Shown here in pieces: positions 4,172-34,558 of a DNA stretch of 64,000 bases. Positions within the stretch are counted from its first letter, which is position 1. Each line of letters begins with the position of its first letter. Source of the DNA: Xanthobacter sp. NM-59. GTDB taxonomy: Bacteria > Pseudomonadota > Alphaproteobacteria > Rhizobiales > Xanthobacteraceae. The notes below the pieces were generated by a model. The model saw only the letters and a program-made list of their open reading frames with translations. It ran no database searches and was not told the DNA's origin. Both the position numbers and the translations under genes were made by a program. The stretch spans positions 868,001 through 932,000 of the forward strand of contig NZ_JACBFQ010000001.1 of assembly GCF_021401125.1 (NCBI RefSeq), read 5' to 3'.

Positions 4172-4702
4172 CTACGGCGTCCACTCCTTGCGCAGGATGG
4201 CGTATTGCATGGTATTCTCGTAGATTGGCACGCCCTGATCGTCATTAACGAATGACACGAACTCCCGGAACAGCCCCTCCCGTCGCATCCCCAGCCTCTC
4301 GCAGAGGCGCTGCGAGGCAAAGTTGTCTTCCTCGACATAGGCATAAAGCCGCCGGGCTTCTTTCACCTTGAACAAGTGGTCGAGTAGCGCCCGTGCCGCC
4401 TCCGAGGCATAGCCGGTACCGCCGAAATTCGCGTTGAAATTCCAACCAACCGAGTATGTGTCGGGAGGCTCGTGGACACAAAACAGGTCGCCGATCAGCG
4501 TATCGGAGCTGCGTAGACATACGGCGACATGCTCATCGCTGCCGCTGCGTGCTTCCACTTCGGCTTGAGCGGCGCCGAGATCGGCGAGCTTCAGAGAAGC
4601 GAAGCAGCTCGACCTGGGTTGGTGCAAATATGCAAACAGATCAGCAGCGTCACCCCGCCGGAAATTTCGGAGAATCAGCCGGTCCGTTTCAACGATGTTC
4701 AC
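4172..4702 (-). CDS. GNAT-family N-acetyltransferase (RimJ-like)
   Basis: A 176-residue protein starting at a GTG (MNIVETDRLILRNFRRGDA), the opening typical of RimJ/RimL-type acetyltransferases. The acetyl-CoA binding region is seen around GGTGYASEAARALLDHLF, followed by NFASQRLCERLGMRREG, the usual beta-bulge and C-terminal motif. The start overlaps the integrase stop by 14 bp, so it is probably translated from the integrase transcript. The substrate (an amino acid, a protein N-terminus or a drug) cannot be told. It is an accessory gene in the integrase module. Confidence 0.85.
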   Translation of the reverse strand: MNIVETDRLILRNFRRGDAADLFAYLHQPRSSCFASLKLADLGAAQAEVEARSGSDEHVAVCLRSSDTLIGDLFCVHEPPDTYSVGWNFNANFGGTGYASEAARALLDHLFKVKEARRLYAYVEEDNFASQRLCERLGMRREGLFREFVSFVNDDQGVPIYENTMQYAILRKEWTP

Positions 4703-5974: not shown

Positions 5975-6543
5975 GGGGACGGCCTCGTTGACGATCCAAA
6001 ACGCCTTTTCGCCCCCCAATTTTACCGTCAAACAACACGAATAACCGTTATATAACAGCGCGGTAGATTGTTTTTCCATGGGCCGCTTGCGTTTTCGGCC
6101 TGACGGTATGGCAAAAATCCGGCGGACGGCGAAAAACGCATACCGTCGCGCGCACCGTCAGAACCCATCGCTTGAAGGCGATAGGCTCCAATAGTGAGTG
6201 ATTGATTTTTGCTTTATTTCAGCTAGTTATGAGGATGTGGCGATAGCTCGCGAAACGCCGCGAGCCACATCATTTCATTCCCACTCGATGATTAACTGGA
6301 GCGGTAAGTATTTGAATTTTCGATGAGTGTAAAACGGAGAAATAGACGATTACCGTCATATATACCGTCAGAATCATACGCAATTGTTTTTCCACAATAA
6401 ATGTGGCGCGGTGCGCGGCGTCGATCTGTACGTTTGTATTATATACGAAGCGCGGGAGAAATAGCTAGAGTCGATCACAAAAGTTCGCGATTGACTGCGA
6501 TAGACGGCGAATCCGTGCGCGCGCGCCCGCGTTGCTCTGCAGG
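5975..6543. promoter_or_regulatory. Gene-free region with iterated TACCGTCA sites upstream of int
   Basis: No gene is seen in this 569-bp, locally AT-rich stretch. TACCGTCA or close variants occur near 6022, 6101 (inverted), 6140 and 6153 (ACCGTCA), 6351 and 6363, and once inside the integrase gene near 5902. ATTGTTTTTCCA is repeated near 6067 and 6384. A hairpin with stem GCTCGCG/CGCGAGC spans 6246-6265. Short repeats beside an integrase gene are typical of arm-type integrase or excisionase binding sites, so this may be part of the attachment region or the integrase promoter. The function is inferred. Confidence 0.55.
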
Positions 6544-7455
6544 CTATGCATTCGTCGCCCTCCAGCCTTCTCCGGGCTTCCAGCGCTCATCCTTTTCAGC
6601 AGGCTCGATCAGGGGAAGCAGAAATCCAGCGAGGTCGTAGACAACGACGGCCAGCTCGGTCGGCGCCGAGGCCATTCGCTCTCGCCCCAGAAAAGCCCTC
6701 CACTGTCGCCCCCAAGCCTCCACGTAAGCCTCGCTCAGACCGATCGGCTTTTCGGTTGGAAGCATGGTCTCGCGCCGCGCAAAAGTCTGGCGGATGGCCT
6801 CGGCAAGCGACGCCCGGTCAAACTCGAATGTCTGCGCGATCAGCCAGAGGTCGTAGAAATCCTTCAGCCGGCTATTCGCGATGCCGAGCAGCACGAGCGC
6901 CTGGAATTTCTCGGCCACTACGGTCGTTACCGGATAGGCGCGCAGGCGGGGCGCCGGCGCGTCGAGCAGTGGCGGATAGACGATCTCGACCGGCCCCGGC
7001 GTGACGGCATCACCGAAACCGATGTCGACCTGAATCGGAACGCGGGCACCCGCGATCGTCGCGGAGGTGCGCACACGAATGCCGCCGTATTCTACGTCTT
7101 CCCGGATCGGAACAGCCGTGATCGCTCCGATATCGAACTCCACGCCATCATCATCGACAGGCTGCCCGCAGATCTCGCGAAAGGTCCCGCCGATCGCCTC
7201 CGGGCTGCTTTCGCCATAGCCGAGGAAGTCGAGATCGCGCGTAGGCCGGAACGGGTCCTCCACCCAGGTCACGAACAGCATCGCCCCTTTCAGAACGAAG
7301 CGGTCGCGATGGGGTGATTGACTCAACCGGTAGAGAAGCCGCTCCAGCGCGTAGCGCGTCAGCAGAATCTGAAAGTCCGTGCGTTCGACGCGAGACCGAT
7401 CGAGCAGACGAGCCCGGACCGAAGCGCCGACATTTTTTCTCGGTTCACGCGCCAT
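6544..7455 (-). CDS. AbiEii-type nucleotidyltransferase toxin
   Basis: A 303-residue protein. Nucleotidyltransferase-fold motifs are visible: FVLKGAMLF, then TRDLDFLGYG (the metal-binding DxD), and later EKFQALVLLGIANSRLKDFY, which is characteristic of AbiEii/AbiGii toxins. ATG at 7455 overlaps the stop of the AbiEi gene by 11 bp, the tight coupling usual for these pairs. The family acts as the toxin of type IV toxin-antitoxin systems and in phage abortive infection. The pair lies between the integrase region and the restriction operon, in keeping with a defence role. Confidence 0.88.
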   Translation of the reverse strand: MAREPRKNVGASVRARLLDRSRVERTDFQILLTRYALERLLYRLSQSPHRDRFVLKGAMLFVTWVEDPFRPTRDLDFLGYGESSPEAIGGTFREICGQPVDDDGVEFDIGAITAVPIREDVEYGGIRVRTSATIAGARVPIQVDIGFGDAVTPGPVEIVYPPLLDAPAPRLRAYPVTTVVAEKFQALVLLGIANSRLKDFYDLWLIAQTFEFDRASLAEAIRQTFARRETMLPTEKPIGLSEAYVEAWGRQWRAFLGRERMASAPTELAVVVYDLAGFLLPLIEPAEKDERWKPGEGWRATNA

Positions 7456-8056
7456 CGGCCATCGTCGCCTCCACATAGGGCTTCATGGTCGACCAGACCT
7501 TGCCCTTGGTCCCATAGGTCCAAAGCTGGTCACTCGTGACTTTTCGCTGTCGAAGCCCCTCGCGCAGACCTTCCAGGGCGACATCCAGCCCGACCTTCGC
7601 CCGATAGCGAAAGCAATCGACGATCGTCCGCGCCGGATTTGTAATCGCCACCTCGACGCCATCGATGGAGCGCCGCTCCACACCTTCCGTCAGCGAGGGG
7701 CCGGTGAAGCGCACGAAGCGAATGGGTGGATAGTCGATCTTGGGACGCCAGGCGGTGCGATCGATGGCCATCCAAACGGCCGACGGCATTTGCAGGGTCA
7801 GCTCATGGAATTGCAGCGCTGAGGTCAGGCAGATGACGCCTTTGGGAACGAGCACCGAAGCTTCCGCCAGAATGCGAGCCGCATCGCCCGAACTATCCGC
7901 AAGCTGATAGAGACCGCGCGCAGGACGAACGACCTCGCCGTCCCGGACAAGACGCGCCAGGGTTTCGGGCGCGATGCCGCGGGCGGCAAAGTCCTTCAGC
8001 CGCATCATGGGGCACGTCTTCAGCAGCTTGAGCGCTTGGGCGCGTTGCGAGTCCAT
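7445..8056 (-). CDS. AbiEi-type antitoxin/transcriptional regulator
   Basis: A 203-residue protein (start MDSQRAQALKLLKTCPMMRL). The N-terminal winged helix covers residues 5-55 (LKDFAARGIAPETLARLVRDGEV, RPARGLYQL), followed by the AbiEi C-terminal domain with VICLTSALQFHELT and NPARTIVDCFRYR. Family members repress their own promoter and counteract the partner toxin without a stable complex. ATG 8056 is preferred over 8092 because inverted repeats that look like the operator lie around 8068-8145, just upstream. The gene comes first in the pair. Confidence 0.87.
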   Translation of the reverse strand: MDSQRAQALKLLKTCPMMRLKDFAARGIAPETLARLVRDGEVVRPARGLYQLADSSGDAARILAEASVLVPKGVICLTSALQFHELTLQMPSAVWMAIDRTAWRPKIDYPPIRFVRFTGPSLTEGVERRSIDGVEVAITNPARTIVDCFRYRAKVGLDVALEGLREGLRQRKVTSDQLWTYGTKGKVWSTMKPYVEATMADGA

Positions 8057-8065
8057 GGCCGTAGC

Positions 8066-8146
8066 GATGTGATATTTCCTCGGCAGATTCAAAATATAGC
8101 AGAGGTTTTATCACATTTACAGGAAAGGGCAAATCCGATGTGATCG
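8066..8146. promoter_or_regulatory. Candidate AbiEi operator
   Basis: TGTGATA (8068-8074) and its inverse TATCACA (8109-8115) flank the AT-rich promoter region just upstream of the antitoxin ATG. A third TGTGAT half-site is at 8139-8144. AbiEi-family antitoxins bind paired inverted repeats upstream of their own gene, so this arrangement fits negative autoregulation. The repeats are seen; the binding is inferred. The rest of 8147-8288 shows nothing recognised. Confidence 0.5.
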
Positions 8147-8288
8147 CCCTTTCAAGGGGCCACCGCATCGGCGACACCAAAGCACTGGCTTCAGCCCTAG
8201 TGGCGCCCCTTACCTCGATGACGGCGCATATTCACCCCCATTGGTGCAAGGCAATTGACGGATAGCCGCCCTCACGAACGATGCCGCC

Positions 8289-11276
8289 TTATGTGTGATC
8301 CATCAGGTCGTCGACGGTTCTCGCCTTTATGTAGCGAGCAGGGTTCGGCCCGGAGGCGAGCGCGCTGAAGTGCGCCTCCCCGCACGCGATCTTGCCGGCT
8401 TCGATGTCGCGCAAGTCATCGACGAAGAGACTGCCTTTGGTCTCCACGACGAAATACAGGCGCTCCTCGCCGCTGACTTCGACCAGAACCGCCCAGTCGG
8501 GGTTGTAGGTACCGAGCGGAGTCGGCACTTTGAACCACCCGGGCAGCTTGGCGTAGATCTTCACAGCTTCGTTCTTTTCGAGCTGCTCGGCGAATGTCCG
8601 CTCGACACCTCCGGAATCATAGACGACGTGCTCGAAGACCGACTTCTGCGCGTCCTTGAGCATGTTGCGCAAATAGCCGGTCAGCTCCTCCTGCGCAAAA
8701 AGCTCCTGCGCGTAATAGTGCTCGTCGCCGATCCGCTGATATTTGATGCCGTCCACGATCGCCAAACGCTTCGTCCGGTTGATCACTTCACCAGCGATCT
8801 CGATGAACGCCTGCGGATTGCGCTTGAAGTCGGTCAAGCGGCCGCACTCGGTCAGAATGCGGACGAGGCTCTTGCGGGTGAGTTGGGTCCGGTCCTGAAG
8901 ATCGGTCAGCACGTCGGGCAGGACGATATCGCCTTCCTCGATCGTGATGATGGTTTCGCTGTTCTTGTCGTGCTCCTTGGCCTCGACACCACCCTGCCCA
9001 ATGGAAAGATCGGCCTTCCTGACCCGCACCCGAGCTTTCGACACCGGCGGGCCATTGGCGATGGCCTTGGCACAATCGGTGATCAGCTTCTCGTTGTCGA
9101 AGTGAACGCGATACGTCGTCTTATGTTTGATGCGATCCCAGAGCGCCTGGAACTCGGCGCTTTCGAGAATGGCCTGCCGTGTCTTGACGGTGACGCGCTC
9201 GTCGGCATTCTTGATGTCGAGCTTCCCGGCGACCTTCTTCAGCACGTCACGAACCGCGCCAAGATGGGCGGCGAGCGCCACCGGCAGCGCGAGCGTTCCG
9301 TCCTTCAAGGCGGTGCGCAGCGTGTCCTGCACCTTGCCCTTGGTGTCGACGAAGCCCTCAGCCTTCAAGTGATCGAAGATGGCGGCGGATTCCTCGAAAC
9401 CCAGCATTCCGGTCGAGCCGTCCGGGTTGACCACGGGGATTGTCGCGAACTGGTGCTTCTCGACAATGCCGAACTTGATGCCGGTGTCCTTCTCGATTTC
9501 CTTCTGCAGGTTCTCGGCGAAGTCCTCGTAACTCTCGGTGGCGATGACGGTCAGCGTGTTGATGTCGAAGCCGCGCAGGCGTTCGCCATTCTGGTTCACG
9601 CACAGCCTAAGACCACGGCCGATGGTCTGCCGCCGCTCGCGCTCGGTGCCGATCTCGCGGAGCGCGCAGATCTGAAAGACGTTGGGATTGTCCCAGCCCT
9701 CCTTGAGGGCGGAGTGCGAGAAGATGAACTTCAGCTTCGTATCGAAGCTGAGCAGCTTCTCCTTGTCCTTCATGATCAGGTTATAGGCACGCTCGGCATT
9801 GTCGCGGCCCGCCTGATTGTTGTCGGCCGTGTCGGTCCAGCGCCGCGCCTTGTCGATCGAGAAATAGCCGTCATGCACCTCTTCGGCTTCCGACGTAACG
9901 TCGACCTCCTTGAACAGGCTGACGAAGTCGAGAAGCTTCGCCGCGCGGCGATACTCCTCTTCGAAGATGCGGGCATACTTGCCCTTCACGGGATTTCCGC
10001 CGGCATCGTAGGAGCGGTAGTGCTCCACCGCATCGATGAAGAACAGGCTCAGCACCTTGATGCCGAGCGGCGCCAAGCGCTTTTCCTTTTCCAGATGCTC
10101 GTGGATCGTGCGGCGGATCATCAGGCGCTTCAGAGCGTCAGCATCGACATCGCCGACGGCTTGGCCAGGCTGGAGAAACTCCTCGCTGCCCGGCAGCTTC
10201 ACCTCCAGGAGCTGATTGTCGCGTCCGGCGCGGATTTCCCCGATGCGGCAATCGGCATAGATCGCACGCTTGGTCAGTTCCTCCAGATCGTCGCCATCCT
10301 GAACCGTCACCTCCTGGCGACGCACTTGCTTGCCGTCGAGCACGTCGATTTCGACGCGGGCGGTGATCGTTCCCTTGGCGTTGCTGGCGGAGACGAAGCG
10401 GACATAGGCCTTGTTGTGGCCGCCCTCCACTTCGAGAGAAGCGACCTCGATCTGCTTGACCAGCTTGCGCTCATAGGCGTCGACAGCGTCGAGGCGGAAC
10501 ACCATGTGATGCTTGTCGACGTGGGTCGCCGAATAGCGCAGCGTGCAAAGCGGATTCATCTCGCCGAGGGCGTTCTTGCCTGCGCCGGAAAGGCCACCGT
10601 CGACGCTCTGCGGTTCGTCCACGATCAGGATTGGCCGGGTCGCGCGGATGAGGTCGATCGGCCGTTCGCCGCCCGTCTTCTCGCTGTCTTTGTAGAGGTT
10701 GTTCACATCCTTCTTATTGATGGCGCCGACCGTCACCACCATGATCTGGATGTTGGGACTGGTCGCGAAATTGCGCACCTGTCCGAGCTTGGCGGAATCG
10801 TAGAGAAAATAGTCGAAGGGCTGGCCCGAATAGAGGCCCTTGAAGTGCTCTTCGGTGATCTGCAGCGTCTTGTAGACGCCCTCCTTGATCGCCACCGACG
10901 GCACGACGATGACAAACTTGGTAAAACCGTAAAGCTTGTTCATCTCGAAGATGGTGCGGAGATAGACATAGGTCTTGCCCGTGCCGGTCTCCATTTCCAC
11001 CGTGAAATCGCCGGAGGTCAGCGCGGCGGATGGCGCCAAGCCATTGCGAAGCTGGATATCCTTCAGATTGGCGATGATCTCGTCGTCCAGCAGCGTAAGC
11101 CGGTTGCCAATGCCGAGTTCGCTTTCGACCAGCCCGAGTTCGCCCTGCAGTCCGCCCGCCTCCTGCCGGGTGACGGTGAACTCGGTGCGGTTGATCTCCT
11201 GGCCACGGAACAGGTCCGCGACGGCCTCGATCGCGCGTTTCTGGTAATCGAGATCGGGTTCGAAATGCAGCTTCAT
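8289..11276 (-). CDS. res: Type III restriction enzyme, Res subunit
   Basis: A 995-residue DEAD-like helicase-nuclease of the usual Res size. Walker A is METGTGKTYVYLR (about residue 97), motif II is IVDEPQS, motif III is YSATH and motif VI is QTIGRGLRL. The C-terminal nuclease shows the PD-ExK pattern in YNPDWAVLV followed by VVETKGS. Res forms a complex with Mod, translocates along DNA and cuts unmethylated sites. ATG 11276 overlaps the previous stop (ATGA) and is preferred to GTG 11282. It is the last gene of the defence operon. All key motifs look intact. Confidence 0.94.
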   Translation of the reverse strand: MKLHFEPDLDYQKRAIEAVADLFRGQEINRTEFTVTRQEAGGLQGELGLVESELGIGNRLTLLDDEIIANLKDIQLRNGLAPSAALTSGDFTVEMETGTGKTYVYLRTIFEMNKLYGFTKFVIVVPSVAIKEGVYKTLQITEEHFKGLYSGQPFDYFLYDSAKLGQVRNFATSPNIQIMVVTVGAINKKDVNNLYKDSEKTGGERPIDLIRATRPILIVDEPQSVDGGLSGAGKNALGEMNPLCTLRYSATHVDKHHMVFRLDAVDAYERKLVKQIEVASLEVEGGHNKAYVRFVSASNAKGTITARVEIDVLDGKQVRRQEVTVQDGDDLEELTKRAIYADCRIGEIRAGRDNQLLEVKLPGSEEFLQPGQAVGDVDADALKRLMIRRTIHEHLEKEKRLAPLGIKVLSLFFIDAVEHYRSYDAGGNPVKGKYARIFEEEYRRAAKLLDFVSLFKEVDVTSEAEEVHDGYFSIDKARRWTDTADNNQAGRDNAERAYNLIMKDKEKLLSFDTKLKFIFSHSALKEGWDNPNVFQICALREIGTERERRQTIGRGLRLCVNQNGERLRGFDINTLTVIATESYEDFAENLQKEIEKDTGIKFGIVEKHQFATIPVVNPDGSTGMLGFEESAAIFDHLKAEGFVDTKGKVQDTLRTALKDGTLALPVALAAHLGAVRDVLKKVAGKLDIKNADERVTVKTRQAILESAEFQALWDRIKHKTTYRVHFDNEKLITDCAKAIANGPPVSKARVRVRKADLSIGQGGVEAKEHDKNSETIITIEEGDIVLPDVLTDLQDRTQLTRKSLVRILTECGRLTDFKRNPQAFIEIAGEVINRTKRLAIVDGIKYQRIGDEHYYAQELFAQEELTGYLRNMLKDAQKSVFEHVVYDSGGVERTFAEQLEKNEAVKIYAKLPGWFKVPTPLGTYNPDWAVLVEVSGEERLYFVVETKGSLFVDDLRDIEAGKIACGEAHFSALASGPNPARYIKARTVDDLMDHT

Positions 11277-11788
11277 GCGCACACCTCACCGATCAGAGCC
11301 ATGTTCTTGTCGTGGCGCGCTTGGTCAAGGTCTTGATCAGCGGGAGCGGCTTCCAGCCGCGCAATATAGTCCGCTGGCAGACCGTGCTCCTTAGCGCCTG
11401 CAACAACGAGAGCGCGGTACCAAGTGTAAGGATTGAGCTTCGGATCGGTGATGGTGGCTACGTAGGCGATCGCAGTGCATTGGTCGGCTTCAAGATGGAC
11501 CTGCACTTGCGTTTCGTCATAGCCCGCCCCAAAGCCTTCAGCCTTGTCGAGGGCCGCCTTCTCGCTGCGCGCTATCTCGAATAGAACACCGAACACCGAC
11601 GCGCCGTGCTTATCTGTTTTCACGATGTCGCACTTTCCAGATCCGTCGCGGCTCTTCTTGTGCCAGCGAAGCTCGTAGCCATGCAGTTCGGTGATACCTT
11701 TCGGTTGCGCAGAAGGGCAGCGTTCCTGCAAACGCGTGCTAAGCATGTTAGAGCCATAGGCGAAGCTTAGAAACGTATCGGCGCTCAT
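11273..11788 (-). CDS. Gamma-glutamylcyclotransferase-fold protein
   Basis: A 171-residue protein that opens with FLSFAYGSNM, the nucleotide-like YGSN loop of the GGCT/AIG2/BtrG fold. The catalytic glutamate position is kept in LDKAEGFGAGY. GGCT-fold enzymes cyclise gamma-glutamyl groups or trim amide-linked amino acids. The ATG shares one base with the Mod stop (TGATG), and its own stop overlaps the Res start (ATGA), so it is translationally coupled between two subunits of one restriction complex. This placement is unusual; its role in the defence operon is unknown. Confidence 0.85.
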   Translation of the reverse strand: MSADTFLSFAYGSNMLSTRLQERCPSAQPKGITELHGYELRWHKKSRDGSGKCDIVKTDKHGASVFGVLFEIARSEKAALDKAEGFGAGYDETQVQVHLEADQCTAIAYVATITDPKLNPYTWYRALVVAGAKEHGLPADYIARLEAAPADQDLDQARHDKNMALIGEVCA

Positions 11789-13800
11789 CACAGGCTCCGC
11801 ACGTCGGCGATGCCGGCCTGATTCAGGATCGCGGCCATGTTGGTCTTGGCGATGTCGTCGGCAAAGCCGGTGTCCTTGAACACCACGCGCGTATCGACGG
11901 CCGGCGCCAGCGCCTTCCGCCAATCGACAATGCCGTTCGCGAGTTCCTCCACCACGTCCTTGGTCAGGCCGTCAGCGAGACAGACGATCAGCGTGCCACC
12001 GCCAATGGAATGAACCGTCTTGCCTGCCACCGTCTTGGTTTCGATCGGCACACAGAGATCGAGGCCGAGTTTGAGCAAGAGCTCATAGAGCACGTCCTGC
12101 TCCTTTCGACCCTGAACGAGGTGCTCGGCATTCTTCAGAAGGCTGTCTTCGAGATCGGCGGGGTCGGCATCCCACGCGCGGATGTTTGAGTTCTCTAACT
12201 TGAAAGCGCGAAAGCCCAGATCGCCCGCAAACATTGGGCTAGATTTCCGGAGTGCGGTAGCCGCCCTGCGGATGCGCTCCTTGGTCAACTCGCTTATGTT
12301 AATGAAGCCGGCTTTCCGCTCCTCAGACTCGGCAGCGGTTGGTTCAGGGAGTTGAACGGATACGAAGCGTTGGCGACTGTTCGTTTCAACTGCTAGTTCC
12401 ATGACGGCATGCGCGGCCGACCCAGAGCCCGCAAAAAAGTCTAGCGTGATGTCATCGTTCTTAACCCCGCAAATTGTCATAAGAAATTTCAACAATGCGG
12501 TCGGCTTTGCAAATTCAAAAGGAATAGCCAATTTTTTCAGTTCAGCAGAACTGTGACGGCTTTCGAATTTTTCCAGAATATTTCCAGGAAGCTGTCCGTC
12601 TTCAAGGCGATCCTTAAGCCAAATCTTATAGTAAATGTTCCAAACGGCTGGGGCGCCGTCGTGCGTAACCAGCGACGTGCGGTCACTTTTGATGAACTCG
12701 ATATTTCCAGACTGCTTCTCTGCTTTGTATCTCGCGTAGGTCCAGCGCCAAACGCCATCACCGTCATTCGGCTTAATTTGCTCACCGTCGGCAAAAGTGC
12801 TGGGAAATGTGCTTCCGGGCGGAATAACCAGTTGCCCATCAGGGCATTCGATGAAGTATCGTTGATTAGCCCGTGGGTCCAACATTGCTTGATACAGGCC
12901 CATCGACCTGTAGTTCTCTCCCTTGCGAGGGCCTTCGACCTCGACCTTTGTGTAAACCTTATCAATGACATTCTGACTAATTTCTGATCGAAATGGCTCA
13001 AGAGAGCTGATGTCTTTTGCATAGATCAAAATGTAATCCACGCATGGGGAAAAGTGCACCCCTTTTTGCCCCCCTGTCTTCATGACGCGAGAACATATCG
13101 TAACCAGATTTTCCTCGCCGAAAATCTCGTTGCACGCGAGCGTGAGATTACTTACTTCTGTTTCACCAATAGAAATACAAATTGCTCCGTTCGGCTTCAG
13201 CAAGTTTCTTGCTATGTATAGCCTAGGGTATATCATATTGAGCCAATCGGTATGATAGCGTCCTGATGCATCAGTATTTGAACTTATCTTTCGACCACCT
13301 TCAATTTGTCCTGTAAGTTCAAGATAATTTTTGATGCTGTCGCGGAAATCATCTGGATAAACGAAATCCTTACCCGTGTTGTAAGGCGGGTCGATGTAAA
13401 TCAGCTTCACCTTTCCGGCATAGCTTTTCTGCAAGAGTTTTAGGACTTCGAGGTTGTCGCCCTCGATCATCAGGTTCTGTGTCGTATCCCAGTCGACGCT
13501 CTCTTCCGGACAGGGCAGCAGCGTGCCGGCCGACGGGGTCAACGCGATCTGCCGGGCGCGGCGTTTGCCATGCCAATTGAGCCCATACTTCTCCTCGCGC
13601 TCGTCCACAGAGCCGCCGAGCAGTTGCTTCAGCACCTCGAAGTCGATCTTCCCTTCCGTGAATGCATCGGGGAACAGGGACTTCATCACCTCGACGTTGC
13701 CGGAGATGATATCGGCGCTCTTGGTCTCGGGGCTCTCGGCATCAAGTTTCTTCATTTTATCCAACTCAATCAGGTGCAAACGAGGCATGGCGGCGGTCAC
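11788..13800 (-). CDS. mod: Type III adenine-N6 DNA methyltransferase, Mod subunit
   Basis: A 670-residue beta-class methyltransferase. The catalytic motif IV YIDPPYNTG lies near residue 137, and the AdoMet motif I DFFAGSGSAAH near residue 455, which is the beta-class order. Between them is a long target-recognition region. GTG 13800 overlaps the DUF262 stop; ATG 13788 is an alternative. Mod sets the recognition site and methylates one strand, and is needed by Res for cutting. By eye, about 12200-13350 is clearly more AT-rich than the ends of the gene and its neighbours, suggesting that the recognition region was exchanged. Confidence 0.94.
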   Translation of the reverse strand: MTAAMPRLHLIELDKMKKLDAESPETKSADIISGNVEVMKSLFPDAFTEGKIDFEVLKQLLGGSVDEREEKYGLNWHGKRRARQIALTPSAGTLLPCPEESVDWDTTQNLMIEGDNLEVLKLLQKSYAGKVKLIYIDPPYNTGKDFVYPDDFRDSIKNYLELTGQIEGGRKISSNTDASGRYHTDWLNMIYPRLYIARNLLKPNGAICISIGETEVSNLTLACNEIFGEENLVTICSRVMKTGGQKGVHFSPCVDYILIYAKDISSLEPFRSEISQNVIDKVYTKVEVEGPRKGENYRSMGLYQAMLDPRANQRYFIECPDGQLVIPPGSTFPSTFADGEQIKPNDGDGVWRWTYARYKAEKQSGNIEFIKSDRTSLVTHDGAPAVWNIYYKIWLKDRLEDGQLPGNILEKFESRHSSAELKKLAIPFEFAKPTALLKFLMTICGVKNDDITLDFFAGSGSAAHAVMELAVETNSRQRFVSVQLPEPTAAESEERKAGFINISELTKERIRRAATALRKSSPMFAGDLGFRAFKLENSNIRAWDADPADLEDSLLKNAEHLVQGRKEQDVLYELLLKLGLDLCVPIETKTVAGKTVHSIGGGTLIVCLADGLTKDVVEELANGIVDWRKALAPAVDTRVVFKDTGFADDIAKTNMAAILNQAGIADVRSL

Positions 13801-15746
13801 GCCGCTTCCAGGTGCAGAATTTCGGTTTCGACATAGGTACGGAAATCAGCCGAGGACGTGAAGCAACGGAAACCCGCCTTGCTCGCCAGGGCGAGGATCT
13901 CCGGGCCTTCATTGAGCAACACGGCGATCGGAGCGCTCAAGCCAGGCTGCAGACCGTCCGGCCACGCCAGATCGAACAACGCCTTCTGCGCGCCCGTGAC
14001 CGGATCGGCGTAATCGAAGCCGAGCAGGCCACGCGGCAAGCCTTGGCCGTCGACCCAATCGTTGAGTGCTTCGAGTTCGGCTTCCTCGACCTCGCTCGTG
14101 ATGCCGCCCACGGCCTGCGCCTCGGCTTCCGCCACCGGCGCCGCTGTGCCGAGCCAGCGCGTATCGCCATGGAGCAAATCCTCGAAGCGCCGGTTCGCCT
14201 CCGCTGCCAGCAACGCCTTGCGGGCTTCGAGAAAATCGAGGTAGCGCTCGATCTTCCACAGTGCGGGATCGGCCGGTATCCACTGCGACGCCAGCGCGCT
14301 GGGATGCCGCGCCTCGACCTCCGGGAAATACTCCTCCGGCAGGCGATCGCTGATGTTGAGGTTCGTGTCCTTGGTCAGGAAGCAAAAATTGCCAAGCGCG
14401 TTCACGTCGGCCCGGCGGTGTTTCAGCTTGTAGAGCTGCGCCTTTGGGAAGATGTGATGAACCTCCAGGCGGCTCATTTTCCCGAGCAGGCTCGCGCGCA
14501 ACGGCAACCCCGTCCCCCAATCCCGCGCCTCGCCCATGCGGGTCAGCATGTAGAGCACCGGATAGAAGCGCGCACCGAGGCTCCAGCCGGTGAAGTGGCC
14601 GGCTTCAACCCGAAGCCCGCCATGCCAGAGCCGAAGCTGTTCCAGCAGCGTGTCCAGGCTGCCGTTCGGCCCTTCGAGGGCAGCCAGATCCTGATCGATG
14701 AAGGTCTCCGTCGATCCCGAGAAGCGCCCCCACATGCCGGCTTGCGCGAACCAGAACAGGAGTTTGTCACGCTCCTTGGCGTCCAGCGCTCCCTTCGTCT
14801 TGTCCATGTAGCGCACCATGACGGGCACGCCGAAGCGCCCGAAGAACACCTGGTCATGATCGAGCCCGAGGCGCCCGGCGATGAAATTCAAGCTCGCGTC
14901 GATGTGTTTGCTGGCGCGCTTCAAGCCATCCTGAATGTCGAGCGCGCCCTTGTCGTGGAGATAGCTGAACTTGGCCTCTCCGGTCAGAACCGTGTTGACG
15001 GAGCGTAGCAGCCAATCGAGGTTGAACTGGTAGCCGGCGGCCGTCCATTCCCTCAGCTTGGCCTTCATAGAGTCGCGCGCTTCCGGCCATTCGGCGCAGA
15101 TCTTCGCGAGCGCCAGATCGCCCTTCGACAGCTTGGTGCCGCCGCTGTTTACCCGGTTGAAAATATCGACGACGACATCGAGGGTCTTGTCCTGACCGGT
15201 GACCTCCTCGACATGCAGGTCGATCTCGGTGACACCAAGCAGAGCGCCAAGGCGGCCGACATAGGCACCCACATTCGCCACATGTGCAGGATCAGCGGAA
15301 AGCTGAGCGATCAATGCCCCAAGCCCGGCGTTCCCTGCCTTCATCAGGGCTGTCACATCGATCCATAGCGGATCGTCCTGCATCTTGACCGGCTGGTAGA
15401 AGGCGAAAGTCTCGGTCTGCAGATGGAAACGCAGGCCGCTGAAGGCCTGGGCGTTGCCGTCGAAAAACTTCGGAGGCTGTCCACGCACGACGCCATAGAG
15501 CGAGGTCATACGCTGCTGGCCGTCCAGCAAGAGCTTGACGATGCCTGCCGCGATAGGGCCGTCGCCGCGATGCGCGGCCGTTTTGGCCTCCGTTGCCCAC
15601 ACAAGCAGGCCGCCGACCGGATGCCGACGGTACAGAGAGTCGAACAGGCCGCGAACCTGATCGCGGTTCCAGACATAGCCACGCTGGAATTCAGGCAGCG
15701 CCATGTGCCCACTGTCAATATGGTCCAGGATCGTGGAAATCTTCAT
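13797..15746 (-). CDS. DUF262/HNH protein (GmrSD-like)
   Basis: A 649-residue protein. The N-terminal DUF262 domain shows PEFQRGYVW (18-26) and LLDGQQRMTSLY (about 73-84), the ParB-like nucleotide-hydrolysing motifs. The C-terminal part carries EVHHIFPKAQL near 424-434, an HNH nuclease core of the DUF1524 kind, followed by a 200-residue tail. Proteins of this layout include the modification-dependent enzyme GmrSD and SspE. It overlaps DUF4391 upstream and Mod downstream by 4 bp each. In this operon it may be a second nuclease that acts on modified or foreign DNA; that is inference. Confidence 0.87.
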   Translation of the reverse strand: MKISTILDHIDSGHMALPEFQRGYVWNRDQVRGLFDSLYRRHPVGGLLVWATEAKTAAHRGDGPIAAGIVKLLLDGQQRMTSLYGVVRGQPPKFFDGNAQAFSGLRFHLQTETFAFYQPVKMQDDPLWIDVTALMKAGNAGLGALIAQLSADPAHVANVGAYVGRLGALLGVTEIDLHVEEVTGQDKTLDVVVDIFNRVNSGGTKLSKGDLALAKICAEWPEARDSMKAKLREWTAAGYQFNLDWLLRSVNTVLTGEAKFSYLHDKGALDIQDGLKRASKHIDASLNFIAGRLGLDHDQVFFGRFGVPVMVRYMDKTKGALDAKERDKLLFWFAQAGMWGRFSGSTETFIDQDLAALEGPNGSLDTLLEQLRLWHGGLRVEAGHFTGWSLGARFYPVLYMLTRMGEARDWGTGLPLRASLLGKMSRLEVHHIFPKAQLYKLKHRRADVNALGNFCFLTKDTNLNISDRLPEEYFPEVEARHPSALASQWIPADPALWKIERYLDFLEARKALLAAEANRRFEDLLHGDTRWLGTAAPVAEAEAQAVGGITSEVEEAELEALNDWVDGQGLPRGLLGFDYADPVTGAQKALFDLAWPDGLQPGLSAPIAVLLNEGPEILALASKAGFRCFTSSADFRTYVETEILHLEAA

Positions 15747-16528
15747 TCGCCATCCCCCAACATCGACCGCTTGGCATGATCGATGGCGGCTTCGACCGCC
15801 TTGATTTTCTGGTTTAAATCAACCCGTTGACTAATCTGTTTGGCGCGCGCCGCCTGCGCGCGCAACTGTGCGATCTCGCGCAAAAGCCGAGCGTGCTCTT
15901 CCAGCGCCGAGCGACGACGATCGATCCGATCGGCTTCATTGGCGAGGATGAATTGGCCCGAGACGCGCGCCGCGTTCAGCGCCTCGATCCGAACCAGCCA
16001 CCCGTCGTACACCGTCGATAGATCGCGTGCGGGTTGCTGTGCAAGTGCCAGGCTTTCCAGGAATGACTGTTCCATCGCGGTAGGGGCGTCCGGATCAATC
16101 TCGCCCGCTATCACGAGACGCTCCACCACCACCTTGTTTCCTTCGTTCTGCGCCGCTCGCTTGGGGGCGACCGACACGGCCGCACGCGCGCCGGATAGTG
16201 TGATCAGCAGGACCGGATACGGAATGGCGCGATGAATGAGTTCGGTGAGACGGGCCGAACGGGCCTCGGGGCGAAGCGTCGCGGATAGGACCGCAATCTC
16301 CGAATAGTTCCGGCCTTCGTCCACGAAGGCGGGTATGGCGACGGTATTGGGCTTGAGCGCGGCGATCCACTGCATCTCTTCGATGCCGTCTTGGATGGCG
16401 CGCTTGTCGGCCGTCGTCGGCGCACCTTGCTCAAGCAGCGCCTTTTTCGGCACGCGCATGTCAAGGCGCGCTCCCGGCGGCAAGTCCAAAGCCGAAATGA
16501 TCGGGTCGGTCGCCACCACCTCCGTCAT
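15743..16528 (-). CDS. DUF4391 protein
   Basis: A 261-residue protein of the DUF4391 type. The N-terminal two thirds is a mixed alpha/beta domain (RLDMRVPKKALLEQG, then QDGIEEMQWIAALKPNTVAI), and the last 60 residues (EEHARLLREIAQLRAQAARA and on) form a likely coiled coil. The function of the family is not established. It is commonly encoded beside helicase, methyltransferase and Res-like genes, which suggests an accessory or bridging subunit. It has 4-bp overlaps with both neighbours. No catalytic motif was recognised. Confidence 0.8.
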   Translation of the reverse strand: MTEVVATDPIISALDLPPGARLDMRVPKKALLEQGAPTTADKRAIQDGIEEMQWIAALKPNTVAIPAFVDEGRNYSEIAVLSATLRPEARSARLTELIHRAIPYPVLLITLSGARAAVSVAPKRAAQNEGNKVVVERLVIAGEIDPDAPTAMEQSFLESLALAQQPARDLSTVYDGWLVRIEALNAARVSGQFILANEADRIDRRRSALEEHARLLREIAQLRAQAARAKQISQRVDLNQKIKAVEAAIDHAKRSMLGDGE

Positions 16529-19500
16529 GGCGTCACGTCCGCCGCCGGAGCCAGGGCAACCAGGAATGCAACGACCTCGAAGTCATTGATGCCGGCGAAC
16601 TCACCCTTCACCGCGTGGGTGCCACCCATTTGGAACAGGCTGGCAACCGCTCGCTCCTCACGTTTGCCGACAATGGTGCCGACAGCGCGGGCCAGCAGCT
16701 TGCGATAGGATTCCATGTCGCGACCAGCACGTGTCGCCTTGTCGAACCGCCCATAAGCCGCTTGGTCCGGCTGGTCGCGGCCGAGGCTGAGCTTCTTCAG
16801 ACGATCGAGCACCTGCTTGGCCTGCGTGTAGGGAAGCAGGACTTCTCCGTCCTCTCCGACGTGAACGACGTAATGCGGCGCCAGCGGATAACCCGGCTCG
16901 GCGACGGAGGAAGCCGCGTCGCCGACGGCCCGCAGGCAGAAGATGACACCCGGCGGCACCGGATTCTCCCCCTCGTCGGGAGCCTCAGTGACCGCGTAGG
17001 TGCCGAGCGGCAATGCATCGAGCCGCTCCCGATTGGCACCCAGATAGCCCGCCAGATCGATCCGGAAATCGTTGAGTGTGAGATCCGCGATAGAAACGCC
17101 ACTGGACAGGTCTTCGAGATCGATCACGGCGTCCTGCAGCTTCTGCAGCTGTGCGCGACGGTATTCCAGATCGTTCATCTCGTTGCCCGCCTGGAACTCG
17201 ATGACGTTCTCCTCGCCGGTGGCCGACACATCCAGAAGTATCATGCGCCCGCTGACGCGGGATTCGAGGTCAAGATACTCGTCCAGCTCCATATTCGGCC
17301 AGAAATTGACCAACTGAATTCTGGAGTTTCGGGAACCAATCCGGTCGATGCGGCCAAATCGTTGGATAATCCGCACGGGATTCCAATGGATATCATAGTT
17401 GACGAGGTAGTCGCAGTCCTGAAGATTCTGACCTTCCGAAATACAGTCCGTGGCAATCAGAAGATCGATTTCTCCCTCAGCGACAAGCTCTGCTGGCCGT
17501 TCTTTGGACCTCGGAGAGAAGGCGCTCAGAATGCTGCTCATGTCCCCGCGAACGCCCGGCAATGTGGTCTTATTCGCCCCAGCGCCGGTAACGACCGCGC
17601 TATGTAGATCGAGCGCCGAGCGCGCCCAATCGGCCAACTCGCGGTAGAGATAGTCCGCCGTATCGGCGAATGCCGTGAACAGCAAAATCTTCCGGTTATC
17701 CGGGTTTATCGGATTGCGGACTTTTTCAACGATCAACCGCTTGAGCGCAGCCAACTTGGCATCGCGCTTGGGGATAACAAGACGCGCGGCCGATAGAAGC
17801 GCCGCCAAGCGTTCATGGTCCTCGACGAGATCCTGTCGCCAGCGAATGCGGTCAACGTCCTGGAGAAGCACCTTGACCTTTCGGCCGACCAGCAGCGGCT
17901 CGAATGCGGGATCGTCCACATCCACGTCGTCAATCGGGATTTCCTCGATCGAGTCGTCATGGGAGTCGATTTTGGCGAGCAGAGCATCAACGTCCGCGAG
18001 TTGGCGTTCGATGGTCAGGGAGAACGACGCGACTGAACTCTCCATGCGCTTCAGGATATTCACGCGCAGGAGATGGATGAGGCTTTCCTCGCGATCAAGC
18101 TGCCGGAAAAACTGATCGCCACCTCTAATCTTCGTACTGTACTTCTCGTCATACGCCGCCTGCTTATGTGGCAGCACGTATCGCAGTGGCGCGTAGGCGC
18201 CGAGAGTAAGGCGCCGGATCTCGTTGTTGACCTCGCGAATAGGCCGAAACTCACCCGTGAGGTCAACATCCGCCTTGATGTTCACCGGCGGCAGCCGGTC
18301 AGGAAACTGCCCCGTTTCCTCGACCCCATAATAACGTTGCACATGCTTGCGCGATCTGGCGATCGTCAGCATGTCGAGCAGCTTGAAGTAGTCAAAGCCG
18401 AGCATGTCCATAAGCTTTGCGGGCCGACGCTCACTTTCCGGCAGGTCGAGCCAACGATTGAACTGGCCTTGCGCCTTACGGATTGTCGCCTCGATGCTTG
18501 GAATGCCATTGGCCGCAAGAGCCACGTCATTCCCTTCTGTTACAAAAGCGATTTGGTTCTTGAGGTCGGCAAGACGGTTGTTGACCGGCGTTGCAGAGAG
18601 CATCAGTACCTTGGTCTTCACCCCCGACAGAATGATCCGCTTCATCAGGTGGTCGTAGCGGCTGTCGCGGTCCTTATGGGTCGGCTTGTTCCTGAAGTTG
18701 TGCGACTCGTCGATGACCACGAGGTCGTAGTTGCCCCAGTTGACGTGGGCAAGATCGATGTCGCCGGATACACCACCATCGCGCGACAGATCCGTGTGGT
18801 TCAAAACGTCATAATTGAACCGATCTGAAGCCAGAATGTTACGGCGGTCATTTGCTTTATAGAGGGTCCAGTTATCACGGAGGCGCTTTGGGCAAAGCAC
18901 GAGAACGCGATCATTGCGAAGCTCATAGTACTTTATGACTGCGAGCGCTTCGAATGTCTTTCCGAGGCCAACACTGTCAGCAATAATGCAGCCGCCGATC
19001 CTCTCCAATTTGTCGATCGCACCCACGACTCCATCGCGCTGGAAGCGAAACAGCTTCTTCCACACGACGGTGTTTCGAATGCCGGTCGCCGATTTGATGA
19101 TCCGCTCTTCGTCAAGCTCATCACCCAAGTCCTTGAAGACCTGATAGAGGATCTGGAAATAGACGAGCGATGGCGCGCGCTGCGAGGCAATTTCCTCCAA
19201 CGCGTTCAGAAAGTGGGCCTTTGCCGATGGGCTCGCCTCAAAGTCCTCCCAGTTCGAGCGAAACCATTCGGAAAAATCAGCAGTCTCGACATCGGACTCG
19301 GTTGCCTGAACCAATCCCAAGCGACCGCTTGGAGTGACTCCGAGCCCATCGGACGTGAATGAGCATGTGCCGACCATGGCTCGACGGAAGTCAGGCTTGC
19401 CATTGACGAGTATCAGCGACTGAGGCGGCGACCGGCGTGCGTGCCGAATTTCAACCCGCTTCCGCGCCCAATCGGCAACAAGACGGGCTAGCCAACGCCC

Positions 19501-19737
19501 CTGGAGTTGTCCACGAAAGACGATGTCGGCGTCGCCGCCGAGAAGGCCGGGCAGAACGGAACTCGCGTCTCCGAGCAACAATCGGCATCGCTCGATCCGA
19601 TCGAGAACACCTCGAAGCTCTGCGAAAGCAAGCAGCGAAAAGGACGGGGAAACGATGTCTATGAGAGCGCCCTGATCGAGCCATTCGCGCAGCCTGTCGA
19701 CGCCTCGATCCGTCCCACTGTTTCTGACAAGCCTCAT
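16525..19737 (-). CDS. SNF2-family helicase with degenerate PLD-like N-terminus
   Basis: A 1070-residue protein. Residues 1-170 resemble a phospholipase D-type domain, with VGTCSFTSDGLG (122-133) in the place of the GSxNFT motif, but the HxK partner is not recognisable. The helicase core follows: ADSVGLGKTFEAL (253-265, Walker A), VVIDESHNF (about 340, DExH), MLSATPVNN, and DIHWNPVRIIQRFGRIDRIG (motif VI). It probably translocates on double-stranded DNA. It is the first large gene of the operon after the small RHH regulator, overlapping it and DUF4391 by 4 bp. Confidence 0.9.
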   Translation of the reverse strand: MRLVRNSGTDRGVDRLREWLDQGALIDIVSPSFSLLAFAELRGVLDRIERCRLLLGDASSVLPGLLGGDADIVFRGQLQGRWLARLVADWARKRVEIRHARRSPPQSLILVNGKPDFRRAMVGTCSFTSDGLGVTPSGRLGLVQATESDVETADFSEWFRSNWEDFEASPSAKAHFLNALEEIASQRAPSLVYFQILYQVFKDLGDELDEERIIKSATGIRNTVVWKKLFRFQRDGVVGAIDKLERIGGCIIADSVGLGKTFEALAVIKYYELRNDRVLVLCPKRLRDNWTLYKANDRRNILASDRFNYDVLNHTDLSRDGGVSGDIDLAHVNWGNYDLVVIDESHNFRNKPTHKDRDSRYDHLMKRIILSGVKTKVLMLSATPVNNRLADLKNQIAFVTEGNDVALAANGIPSIEATIRKAQGQFNRWLDLPESERRPAKLMDMLGFDYFKLLDMLTIARSRKHVQRYYGVEETGQFPDRLPPVNIKADVDLTGEFRPIREVNNEIRRLTLGAYAPLRYVLPHKQAAYDEKYSTKIRGGDQFFRQLDREESLIHLLRVNILKRMESSVASFSLTIERQLADVDALLAKIDSHDDSIEEIPIDDVDVDDPAFEPLLVGRKVKVLLQDVDRIRWRQDLVEDHERLAALLSAARLVIPKRDAKLAALKRLIVEKVRNPINPDNRKILLFTAFADTADYLYRELADWARSALDLHSAVVTGAGANKTTLPGVRGDMSSILSAFSPRSKERPAELVAEGEIDLLIATDCISEGQNLQDCDYLVNYDIHWNPVRIIQRFGRIDRIGSRNSRIQLVNFWPNMELDEYLDLESRVSGRMILLDVSATGEENVIEFQAGNEMNDLEYRRAQLQKLQDAVIDLEDLSSGVSIADLTLNDFRIDLAGYLGANRERLDALPLGTYAVTEAPDEGENPVPPGVIFCLRAVGDAASSVAEPGYPLAPHYVVHVGEDGEVLLPYTQAKQVLDRLKKLSLGRDQPDQAAYGRFDKATRAGRDMESYRKLLARAVGTIVGKREERAVASLFQMGGTHAVKGEFAGINDFEVVAFLVALAPAADVTP

Positions 19738-19946
19738 GCCTCACCACCCTTTCGAGGCGGCCGAGACATAGCGGAGGGATGACGAGCTTCAGATGTGCTC
19801 TCGATGAATTGGCGAATCGCCTGGCGAATGACCCACGAGACCGAAGCGTCCCTCGATAGCGCGATCTGACACAGCGTCTGATAGTCTTGCTCTTCCAGAC
19901 TAACTGTCAGCCGCGTTGCCTTGCGTGGACGCTCGTTCATTTCCAT
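19734..19946 (-). CDS. Ribbon-helix-helix regulator leading the defence operon
   Basis: A protein of about 70 residues (start MEMNERPRK; MNERPRK at 19940 is also possible). ATRLTVSLEEQDYQTLCQIA, followed by SVSWVIRQAIRQFIE, is a standard ribbon-helix-helix fold of the CopG/Arc kind. Its stop overlaps the helicase start (ATGA), so it is the promoter-proximal gene of the seven-gene restriction operon and probably its repressor. A short AAGTG/CACTT inverted repeat at 19997-20009 lies in the presumed promoter. Little else is seen in 19947-20181. Confidence 0.78.
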   Translation of the reverse strand: MEMNERPRKATRLTVSLEEQDYQTLCQIALSRDASVSWVIRQAIRQFIESTSEARHPSAMSRPPRKGGEA

Positions 19947-20181
19947 CCCCACGGTTCCTCGGGCCAACTTACCGGCTTGCGCATCAGACTTCAACGAAGT
20001 GATGCACTTTTCACCAGTACGTACCCGAGACCATTCGGAACGGGGAGGCCAAGGTGTCGTGGAGAAAAACTAATGATGAAAGTGAGTGCTTCGCCGTCGT
20101 CAGGAATATAGTGGTCGGGCGCGCCCTTGCGGCAAAGGGCCTTATGTTAGGTTCTTTTCCGAAGACAATAGTTGCGATGGC

Positions 20182-20430
20182 TCAGGGGTCCACTTTTTTG
20201 TTAACGGAGATATGGCTTCCCCGCCGCGCGCTGGCAAATCCCCGGTCGGTTGCCATGAACCGCTCCAGCATGGGCACGATCAGGCGAACGGGATCAGCGA
20301 CGGACTGCCCTCCGTCGCGGCCGAGGATCTCGGCATAGGCGGTTAGGTCGCGATGCAGGCTGGCGGGAAGCTCCAGCGTCACCTTGACCGGCTTGTCGTT
20401 GGCGATCGGACCGAGTTTCAGCTTTGCCAT
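20182..20430 (-). CDS. DUF2274 protein
   Basis: An 82-residue protein starting MAKLKLGPIANDKPVKVTLE, the standard opening of DUF2274. LPASLHRDLTAYAEILGRD looks like a ribbon-helix-helix. The gene lies one base after trbI and is almost always the last member of trb clusters in this ICE family. Its function is unknown; a DNA-binding regulator is the best guess. ATG 20430 is preferred over upstream in-frame codons because it fits family starts. Confidence 0.85.
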   Translation of the reverse strand: MAKLKLGPIANDKPVKVTLELPASLHRDLTAYAEILGRDGGQSVADPVRLIVPMLERFMATDRGFASARRGSHISVNKKVDP

Positions 20431-20431
20431 G

Positions 20432-21655
20432 TCAGCCTCCGTAGGGCTCAAGCACGAGATCGCGGGTGACGATCACACGGACGGGGAAACCCGGTCGGAT
20501 GGTCAGCGTAGGGGCGATGTTGAGCTGACGCTGCACGATCTGCTGGCCGGTCTGGTTGATGCTGTCGGACGCGCCATTGCGCAGCGCGCGAATGATGTCG
20601 CTGTCATTGCTCGATGATCCGGATTGGGCGCCAACGCTCAGCAGCGTCGACAGCGCCGCGGCCTTGAACAGCTCGCCCCAGTGGTAATCGACGCCATCTT
20701 CGAGCCCGGCATAGCCCTCAGCGTCTGCACCTGGCTGGCGCTCCAACACGATCGAGCGGCCATTGGGGAAGATCAGCCGGTTCCAGACCAGCAGCACGCG
20801 GCGCTGACCGAAGCCGACGCCGTTGTCGTATTGCCCGATGATCCGCGTGCCCTGCGGAACGAGCAGGATGCGCCCGGTCGGGCTGTCATAGACGTTCTCC
20901 GTCACCTGCGCGGTGATCTGACCGGGTAGATCGGAGCGGATGCCGGTGATGAGTGCCGCCGCGATCACCGCCCCCGCCTGAAGCACATTGGCCGACGCAG
21001 GAGCGGCGACATGATCCGGTGAGACGGTGCGCTTGTCGGGCGCCTGATTGAGGAACGCGAGCTGGCGATCCTGCGCGGAAGGCGTCGCGGGCTGTGGTAC
21101 CAGCCCGAGACTCGCGAGGTCCGTCTGAGGCGTGACCGCCGCCTGCGGCTGCGGGACAACGGTGCTGGCCGGCCGCGTCTCGGTCGAAGCGAAGAGACGG
21201 GCCGTCCGCGCGGCCTCCAGCTCCTGAATGCGGCGTTGCTCTTCCTGACTGATCCCCGAATTGGGCGTCGCAATCCCCGGCGTCGGCACCGACTGGCCGG
21301 CATTCTGGGCGCTGAGGATCGGCCGGCCGAGGTCGCCCGGCAGCGGCGGACCCAGCTTCGGGACACCGGCATAGTCCTTCGGCAAGGCGGCAAGGCCGTC
21401 TGGCGTCGTCCGGTTGTCGGTCGAATAGAGCTCCTCGTTCGTCTTGCCGCCGTGCCGGGTTTGGAGCGCGTAGATCAACGTGCCGCCGATGCCGGTGCCA
21501 GCGAGAAGGCCAAGGGCGATCAGCACCTTTCTCGAGAGGCGCGTCACACGCGGCGGTTCGGGCCGCAGCCGCATCGGTGCGACCGGCTCTCCGGTCAGCG
21601 GCCGGGCCTCGTCGTCCGCTTCTGACCTGTGACGATCAGGTTCGATCTCGCTCAC
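20432..21655 (-). CDS. trbI: TrbI, VirB10-like conjugation channel protein
   Basis: A 407-residue protein. A short cytoplasmic N-terminus, one membrane span (VLIALGLLAGTGIGGTLIYA, about 44-63) and a proline/glutamine-rich periplasmic linker precede the C-terminal VirB10/TrbI barrel domain (ILLVPQGTRIIGQYDNGV, VLVWNRLIFPNGRSI). VirB10 homologues link the inner-membrane energisers to the outer-membrane core of the type IV secretion channel. The start overlaps the trbG stop by 4 bp. Length and motifs look complete. Confidence 0.95.
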   Translation of the reverse strand: MSEIEPDRHRSEADDEARPLTGEPVAPMRLRPEPPRVTRLSRKVLIALGLLAGTGIGGTLIYALQTRHGGKTNEELYSTDNRTTPDGLAALPKDYAGVPKLGPPLPGDLGRPILSAQNAGQSVPTPGIATPNSGISQEEQRRIQELEAARTARLFASTETRPASTVVPQPQAAVTPQTDLASLGLVPQPATPSAQDRQLAFLNQAPDKRTVSPDHVAAPASANVLQAGAVIAAALITGIRSDLPGQITAQVTENVYDSPTGRILLVPQGTRIIGQYDNGVGFGQRRVLLVWNRLIFPNGRSIVLERQPGADAEGYAGLEDGVDYHWGELFKAAALSTLLSVGAQSGSSSNDSDIIRALRNGASDSINQTGQQIVQRQLNIAPTLTIRPGFPVRVIVTRDLVLEPYGG

Positions 21656-31248: not shown

Positions 31249-31264
31249 CGGCGCGCCGACTTAG

Positions 31265-31702: not shown

Positions 31703-31713
31703 GATCGTCGCCC

Positions 31714-34115: not shown

Positions 34116-34150
34116 CGGACAGCCCTCCCTCGGACCTAGCGTCCAGAACA

Positions 34151-34537: not shown

Positions 34538-34558
34538 GACGCTGGTTCCTCTCGTGTC

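Follow-up and report, generated by a model that had tools for sequence, protein, structure and literature searches.

The DNA examined here, a window of 64,000 nucleotides from Xanthobacter sp. NM-59 (the whole stretch that was analysed), contains a block of seven genes, all on the minus strand within positions 8289–19994, that a first-pass annotation had described as a composite restriction operon built around type III restriction–modification (R-M) genes. The genes, together with a segment of Mod that is discussed separately below, are listed here in the order in which they would be read; the two genes marked as cargo lie in what we term slot A (the gap between the DUF4391 and Mod genes) and slot B (the gap between the Mod and Res genes).

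19734–19946, minus strand: RHH (CopG-type) regulator, start uncertain (PF01402/RHH_1, 33 bits)
16525–19737, minus strand: SNF2-family ATPase with an N-terminal PLD-fold domain, core gene (PF00176, SNF2; PF00271, Helicase_C)
15743–16528, minus strand: DUF4391 protein, core gene (PF14335, 233 bits)
13797–15746, minus strand: DUF262 protein with an HHIFP (HNH-like) motif, kin of BrxU, GmrSD and RloF, slot A cargo (PF03235, GmrSD_N/DUF262, 87 bits)
11788–13800, minus strand: Mod, type III N6-adenine methyltransferase, core gene (N6_N4_Mtase; EcoP15I Mod homology)
12232–13232, minus strand: stretch of Mod replaced between related operons, approximately residues 190–520, presumed recognition domain (alignments to relatives)
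11273–11788, minus strand: GGCT-fold (gamma-glutamylcyclotransferase-like) protein, slot B cargo (AIG2_2/GGACT, 63 bits)
8289–11276, minus strand: Res, type III restriction subunit with DEAD helicase and endonuclease domain, core gene (RE_endonuc, 118 bits; ResIII)

As the first-pass annotation had stated, all six junctions between these same-strand genes overlap by 1–4 bases. The ends of the open reading frames (ORFs) give 4-base overlaps at the RHH/SNF2, SNF2/DUF4391, DUF4391/DUF262 and DUF262/Mod junctions; with the ATGs at 11788 and 11276 taken as starts, the sequence gives an overlap of 1 base for Mod/GGCT and of 4 bases for GGCT/Res (the ORF list has a GTG at 11282 as the Res start). An ATG near 19940–19946 is a more likely start for the RHH gene than the listed TTG at 19994, judging by the sequence, and RHH homologues occupy the equivalent place in four related loci (L050, L091, L108 and L160). 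Two of these relatives, L091 and L160, align with the window from approximately 20,016–20,021 down to 8293–8299, so that the aligned stretch begins just ahead of the RHH gene and ends at the stop codon of Res. This gives the block the look of a discrete unit, and its earlier description as a single, tightly packed, module-like operon agrees both with the overlaps and with the alignment of those two relatives across it.

The DUF4391 gene was found in 23 of 398 sampled genomes of Pseudomonadota, 11 of 385 of the same class and 8 of 296 of the same family, where every sample includes the window's own genome and some genomes are common to several samples. Forty regions were fetched (38 from DUF4391 matches and two from DUF262 matches), leaving out G575, whose locus is the same as L108, and a 51-residue match in G807; the DUF4391 profile recognized its target in 37 of the 38, the match in the exception, L136, falling below the family cut-off. 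SNF2, DUF4391, Mod and Res were all present, in constant order, in 25 of the 37 sampled loci; of the remaining 12, ten are truncated by the end of a contig or region, and two (L144 and L167) are without an expected neighbour inside the contig. Among plasmid records with DUF4391 (eight viewed of 34 that matched), those of Paraburkholderia, Methanomethylovorans (an archaeon), Acinetobacter, Aeromonas, E. coli and Enterococcus carry the complete four-gene set; the Acetobacter record has an interrupted Res and the Desulforapulum record a partial one. DUF4391 was not found in phage records.

The conserved unit is these four genes, SNF2-DUF4391-Mod-Res, and not all seven. The gene-context search that had been proposed for the full set thus recovered a conserved order for four of the families, but not conservation of all seven together, and the idea of a conserved seven-gene system was rejected: GGCT or DUF262 is absent from relatives, the chassis is shared with other cargo, a DUF262 gene occupies slot A in six of 80 loci (see below), and only two loci, the window's and L050 (Rhizobium sp. 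SL86), were found to carry GGCT in the operon. Confinement of both genes to this genome, which had been named beforehand as a contrary outcome, does not apply to DUF262 and nearly applies to GGCT. It is also very improbable that all seven proteins form a single complex that functions only when complete. The overlapping junctions would suit such a complex, but the restriction of GGCT to two loci, the lack of near-family DUF262 from most loci and the existence of close chassis relatives without DUF262, GGCT or both all speak against it.

Counting a slot as occupied if it spans at least 200 bp, a rule that also admits slots whose frames are all short or doubtful (L139, L143, L148, L150 slot A and L155), slot A was occupied in 13 of 33 sampled loci, slot B in 11 of 30, and at least one of the two in 18 of 33. 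The window carries the BrxU-related DUF262 protein in slot A and the GGCT-fold protein in slot B. Elsewhere, with cargo named by Pfam and with plasmid and named loci among those tested, the occupants were as follows.

Slot A: GmrSD in L147; zeta toxin in L138 (L140 and L141 alike by eye); Abi_C in L131
Slot A: DUF2130 in L149; KilA-N in L154; HNH_2 in L160
Slot A: a PLD-like match just below the cut-off in L052; a weak SMC-like ATPase match below the cut-off in L158; no match in L004
Slot B: AlbA/Schlafen in L059 and L153 (L135 alike by eye); RhuM in L140 and L150 (L141 alike by eye)
Slot B: Fic in L131 and L156 (L138 and L140 alike by eye); the gene preceding Fic in L131 and L138 without a match
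Slot B: GmrSD in L006; NgoFVII-type PLD, on the opposite strand, in L164

The DUF262 and GGCT genes behave as cargo and not as core. One could suppose that the slots are neutral insertion points and that their cargo hitch-hikes, functionally unlinked to the core. This would account for the many unlike families among the occupants, for each slot being empty (less than 200 bp) more often than not (20 of 33 sampled loci for slot A and 19 of 30 for slot B) and for a transposase-like insert in the Mod gene of one relative. We nevertheless consider it improbable, given the 4-base start–stop overlaps that flank the DUF262 gene on both sides, the membership of much of the cargo in defence or toxin families, and the occurrence of the same DUF262 family within type I operons and next to genes of BREX and DISARM.

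Comparison with the closest relatives illustrates how the cargo of the four-gene unit differs from locus to locus. L160, which is from the same family as the window, is 88% identical to it in SNF2 and 93% in Res, and has HNH_2 where the window has DUF262; its alignment runs from 20016 to 15743 and resumes at 13756, skipping the DUF262 gene together with the initial 44 bases of mod. L108 (Xanthobacter agilis; SNF2 97%, Res 98%) holds both DUF262 and HNH_2 in slot A and has no GGCT, its alignment breaking at 11785 and 11276 so as to skip that gene. DUF262 is the sole cargo of L091 (SNF2 85%, Res 94%), and L050 (SNF2 97%, Res 98%) carries DUF262 plus GGCT 68% identical to the window's. Near-identical chassis carry different cargo, with breaks at, or within approximately 45 bases of, gene ends. 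The insert that interrupts Mod in L050 (L050:13068-15520) carries the transposase-like frame mentioned above, as judged by eye.

The same relatives differ sharply within Mod. Positions 12232–13232 have no nucleotide match to L050 or L091, and the flanks align at 84–91% and 76–78%. In protein comparisons with L108, L091 and L160, identity is 18–46% over residues 201–500, as against 58–98% over residues 51–200 and 501–670 and 34–66% over the first 50 residues. Because identity collapses over residues 201–500 and the flanks are conserved, we conclude that the middle of Mod has been replaced between related operons; the replaced part is presumably the recognition domain. The G+C content over the Mod region (window 12001-14000), which overlaps the replaced middle, is 0.52, compared with 0.56–0.63 elsewhere in the operon.

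The assignment of Mod and Res to type III, made in the first-pass annotation, is borne out by homology to EcoP15I. Mod matches EcoP15I Mod (4zcf_A, E 1e-60; PADLOC MTase_III, 644 bits) and contains DPPY at residue 137 and the FxGxG region at residue 455, and Res matches EcoP15I Res (4zcf_C, E 9e-68; PADLOC REase_III, 1271 bits). Type III R-M systems methylate one strand of an asymmetric site and cut between head-to-head sites.

The SNF2 protein matches the PADLOC profile C3a139 (‘HKD+Snf2’, 395 bits), and its ATPase motifs are nearly invariant among 45 aligned homologues. A model of its first 250 residues (pLDDT, the predicted local distance difference test, of 72) matches PLD folds in Foldseek, the best being SauUSI (7clg, E 1e-4), and also matches FAM83B DUF1669 (E 1.6e-3). 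The position of the PLD catalytic histidine is occupied by Q in 43 of the 45 homologues and by L and P in one each, with no H in any; eight of 45 have an HxK sequence somewhere ahead of the Walker A motif, and a single one, L009, has the complete HxKxxxxD, which lies off the PLD motif position. According to the model, the N-terminus has a PLD fold, and the catalytic motif is not at its place. An active PLD nuclease at this end was accordingly rejected, all 45 homologues lacking H at the motif position; the ‘PLD-like end’ noted earlier stands as a fold, at the N-terminus, without the catalytic histidine at its place. No PADLOC model matched DUF4391 or GGCT at E ≤ 0.001.

The DUF262 protein matches the structure of BrxU (7p9k, E 2.6e-12), and the motifs DGQQR and HHIFP are present in 75 and 74, respectively, of 76 family members, the window's included. 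Its identification as a GmrSD-type DUF262 protein, on PF03235 and this match, holds, and other genomes have the gene in this position too. When one genome per species was scanned, 100 relatives were recovered, and 80 of them were kept. In six of these 80 loci (L050, where Mod is interrupted, L059, L089, L090, L091 and L108) the gene lies between DUF4391 and Mod with Res after; L097 has SNF2-DUF4391-DUF262 and no Mod after, L114, on a short contig, has SNF2-DUF262, and L052 has DUF262 after Res. A DUF262 tree, built by a quick method with no bootstrap, comprised 76 of 81 rows (five rows of at most 480 residues, L114 among them, were dropped). An ‘embedded’ label, given to nine rows with L052 and L097 counted, required five changes on this tree, all five forced by well-supported branches, compared with a mean of 8.7 when shuffled. 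DUF262 probably came to slot A by repeated capture.

The family is a guest of several systems: the type III-like operon described here and type I R-M, and members also lie next to BREX and DISARM genes. Of the 67 other rows of the DUF262 tree, 28 have a match to a type I R-M gene within 6 kb on the same strand (a few of these matches are weak), and 14 of the 28 are ordered HsdM-HsdS-DUF262-HsdR, an assignment checked with Pfam on one HsdS and one HsdR. In L051 a DUF262 relative follows BrxL, and a Nostoc relative, 52% identical, is near drmA and drmC. Many relatives (within L050–L129) come from records that by name belong to other phyla and yet are 70–80% identical to the protein of the window, which points to recent, frequent transfer.

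Its homology to BrxU predicts that the DUF262 protein is an NTP-dependent nuclease acting against phage DNA with modified cytosines. Because much of the other cargo is toxin-like, the main rival to this prediction is a PrrC-like guard model, in which the protein would be a backup or suicide effector, restrained by Mod-Res and released when a phage inhibits that complex, and not mainly a nuclease for modified DNA. Many of the other slot occupants are of toxin or abortive-infection type (zeta toxin, Fic, RhuM, Abi_C and AlbA/Schlafen), and there is precedent in PrrC which, like RhuM and DOC, occurs in R-M operons (PMC3710099, in the portion consulted). The relationship of the DUF262 protein to BrxU, which cuts modified DNA and defends without BREX (according to the sections of PMC8565348 available to us), argues the other way, and we regard the guard model as unlikely.

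The GGCT-fold protein matches human GGCT (2i5t, E 4.5e-13) and has the YGSN (YGSNM) and LDxxEG (LDKAEG) motifs, the glutamate of the latter being, we presume, the catalytic glutamate of gamma-glutamylcyclotransferase. Relatives occur in seven of 36 searched genomes with a DUF4391 match (from a total of 39; G077, G215 and G275 were left out), and only in the window's genome at the operon; on plasmids, none of the four viewed of 13 matching records has its GGCT relative in an R-M operon. Nitratireductor and Rhizobium plasmids (L170:7293-8501 and L171:7008-8525) encode GGCT-family proteins of approximately 400–500 residues in which the GGCT match is C-terminal, after an uncharacterized part. It would be no more than a bold guess that the protein in the window carries out small-molecule or modification chemistry, for example on an amino-acid-type DNA modification or signal.

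We consider it likely that the locus is a four-gene type III-like R-M operon (SNF2-DUF4391-Mod-Res), led by the RHH gene and bearing two cargo genes, that would combine restriction of unmodified DNA with a backup against modified DNA. By comparison with EcoP15I and known families, Mod would methylate adenine in an asymmetric site and Mod-Res would cut DNA with unmodified sites. The SNF2 protein would hydrolyse ATP and act on DNA or on the Mod-Res complex, using its PLD-fold domain for binding and not for cutting, and DUF4391 might be its partner in a motor pair, which is the weakest step of this scheme. The DUF262 protein, as suggested by BrxU, would cut phage DNA whose modified cytosines would let it escape Mod-Res, and its placement in the operon would cause both layers of defence to be made together. 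Restriction of both unmodified and modified DNA, as the first-pass annotation had suggested, is a fair inference by analogy with BREX and BrxU, a parallel that has been tested (PMC8565348, in part). We put forward more tentatively, at slightly below even confidence, the broader proposal that SNF2-DUF4391-Mod-Res is not plain type III R-M but a defence system in its own right, widespread and as yet without a name, in which the SNF2 motor with its non-catalytic PLD-fold domain and DUF4391 would be required, and in which two slots of a chassis would be reloaded with backup effectors (modified-DNA nucleases and toxins) while the Mod recognition domain is swapped. A literature search, with subscription journals largely outside its scope, found no name for this unit or its slots, and DUF4391 in one paper, as a table row only.

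Several observations weigh against this interpretation. A consensus scan of positions 8000–20600 gave a single promoter-like site, which is on the plus strand, and none upstream of the operon; it also gave 16 terminator-like sites, compared with 12.2 (sd 3.5) in shuffled sequence, which is about the number expected by chance. With no promoter-like site on the operon strand and roughly a chance number of terminator-like sites, the reading of the block as one transcript is neither supported nor refuted. GmrSD_C (DUF1524, PF07510) has no match in the DUF262 protein at E ≤ 0.001, so that its nuclease half rests on the HHIFP motif, and the window has HH where BrxU has D474-H475, as judged by eye without an alignment. 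Near-family DUF262 is uncommon as cargo, being present in the DUF4391 genome samples only in G575 besides the window. The five label changes on the DUF262 tree may mix gains and losses, and a tree of SNF2 (45 rows) puts seven DUF262-bearing chassis in two places versus ten with other slot A cargo (two changes, with 28 rows without listed cargo left out), so that repeated capture and replacement within a few chassis lineages both fit. The AlphaFold2 model of DUF4391 (pLDDT 83.7, eight sequences) has no fold match in the PDB at E ≤ 0.001.

The operon appears to be part of a conjugative element. To one side of it lie a TraG-type coupling protein, a TrbE-like ATPase and a DUF3363 relaxase; to the other, AbiEi/AbiEii and an integrase. 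The integrase (window 4689-6079, minus strand) is in two overlapping frames of 379 and 123 residues, compared with a single frame of approximately 474 codons in its L108 relative, and may be broken; L091 has a separate match to it. The AbiEi/AbiEii toxin–antitoxin pair lies directly downstream of the operon (window 6544-8092, minus strand). Since it is present also in L050 and L108 and the flanks fetched for L091 and L160 showed none, it seems to be part of the element and not of the operon. An AbiEi-like gene lies ahead of SNF2 in L154. Within window positions 30499-46636, the TraG gene has an SDR dehydrogenase nearby, and the interval from TraG to the relaxase holds genes for an M24 peptidase, an AraC-type regulator and a metallo-beta-lactamase-fold hydrolase (the last by superfamily match only); these genes seem to be metabolic cargo that the element carries.

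For type I R-M (RloF and PrrC) and BREX (BrxU), operons that house a second layer of defence are already known, and our analysis suggests that the same holds for a common type III-like operon, which has defined slots for it. The DUF4391|mod and mod|res slots are a simple place to look for new anti-phage genes, and the system has two parts still to be explained, the SNF2 protein and DUF4391, the latter being its marker and occurring in approximately one in 17 of the sampled Pseudomonadota genomes.

Among known systems, type III R-M as represented by EcoP15I shares homologous Mod and Res subunits with the operon, which differs in having two more conserved upstream genes (SNF2 and DUF4391) and two cargo slots. 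The SNF2 N-terminal domain has its best fold match in SauUSI but, unlike SauUSI, is without the catalytic histidine at the motif position. The SNF2 helicase is related to DrmD of DISARM, but it scores 145 bits against a cut-off of 610; DISARM class 1 was rejected on that score and on the lack of drmA, drmB and drmC, or any other DISARM gene, among the seven genes. BREX was rejected on the family matches of the seven genes, and a DUF499-centred, BREX-related (Hma) system, as defined in the part of PMC12839542 consulted, because none of the seven matches the DUF499 ATPase. In BREX and DUF499/Hma systems, GmrSD, Schlafen and HKD auxiliary effectors have been recruited into core loci (PMC12839542, same portion), and the operon resembles them in having extra effectors lodged within a core locus; the main text of that paper, as far as available, contains neither ‘EcoP15I’ nor ‘Mod subunit’, and the four-gene unit was not found described there. 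A further likeness is with the R-linked ORFs of type I R-M, RloF among them: DUF262 proteins lie in type I loci between the specificity and restriction genes, with type I and ResIII domains enriched among GmrSD neighbours (PMC4619093, in excerpt). Kin of the window's protein were likewise seen inside type I operons, whereas its host operon here is SNF2-DUF4391-Mod-Res. In the BREX system of pEFER, brxU lies between brxC and pglX and each layer stops different phages (PMC8565348, in the sections cited above). That arrangement, too, places a GmrSD-family gene, homologous to the DUF262 gene of the window, within a methylation-based defence operon, and differs in that the host operon here is type III-like and in having DH where the window's protein, by eye, has HH.

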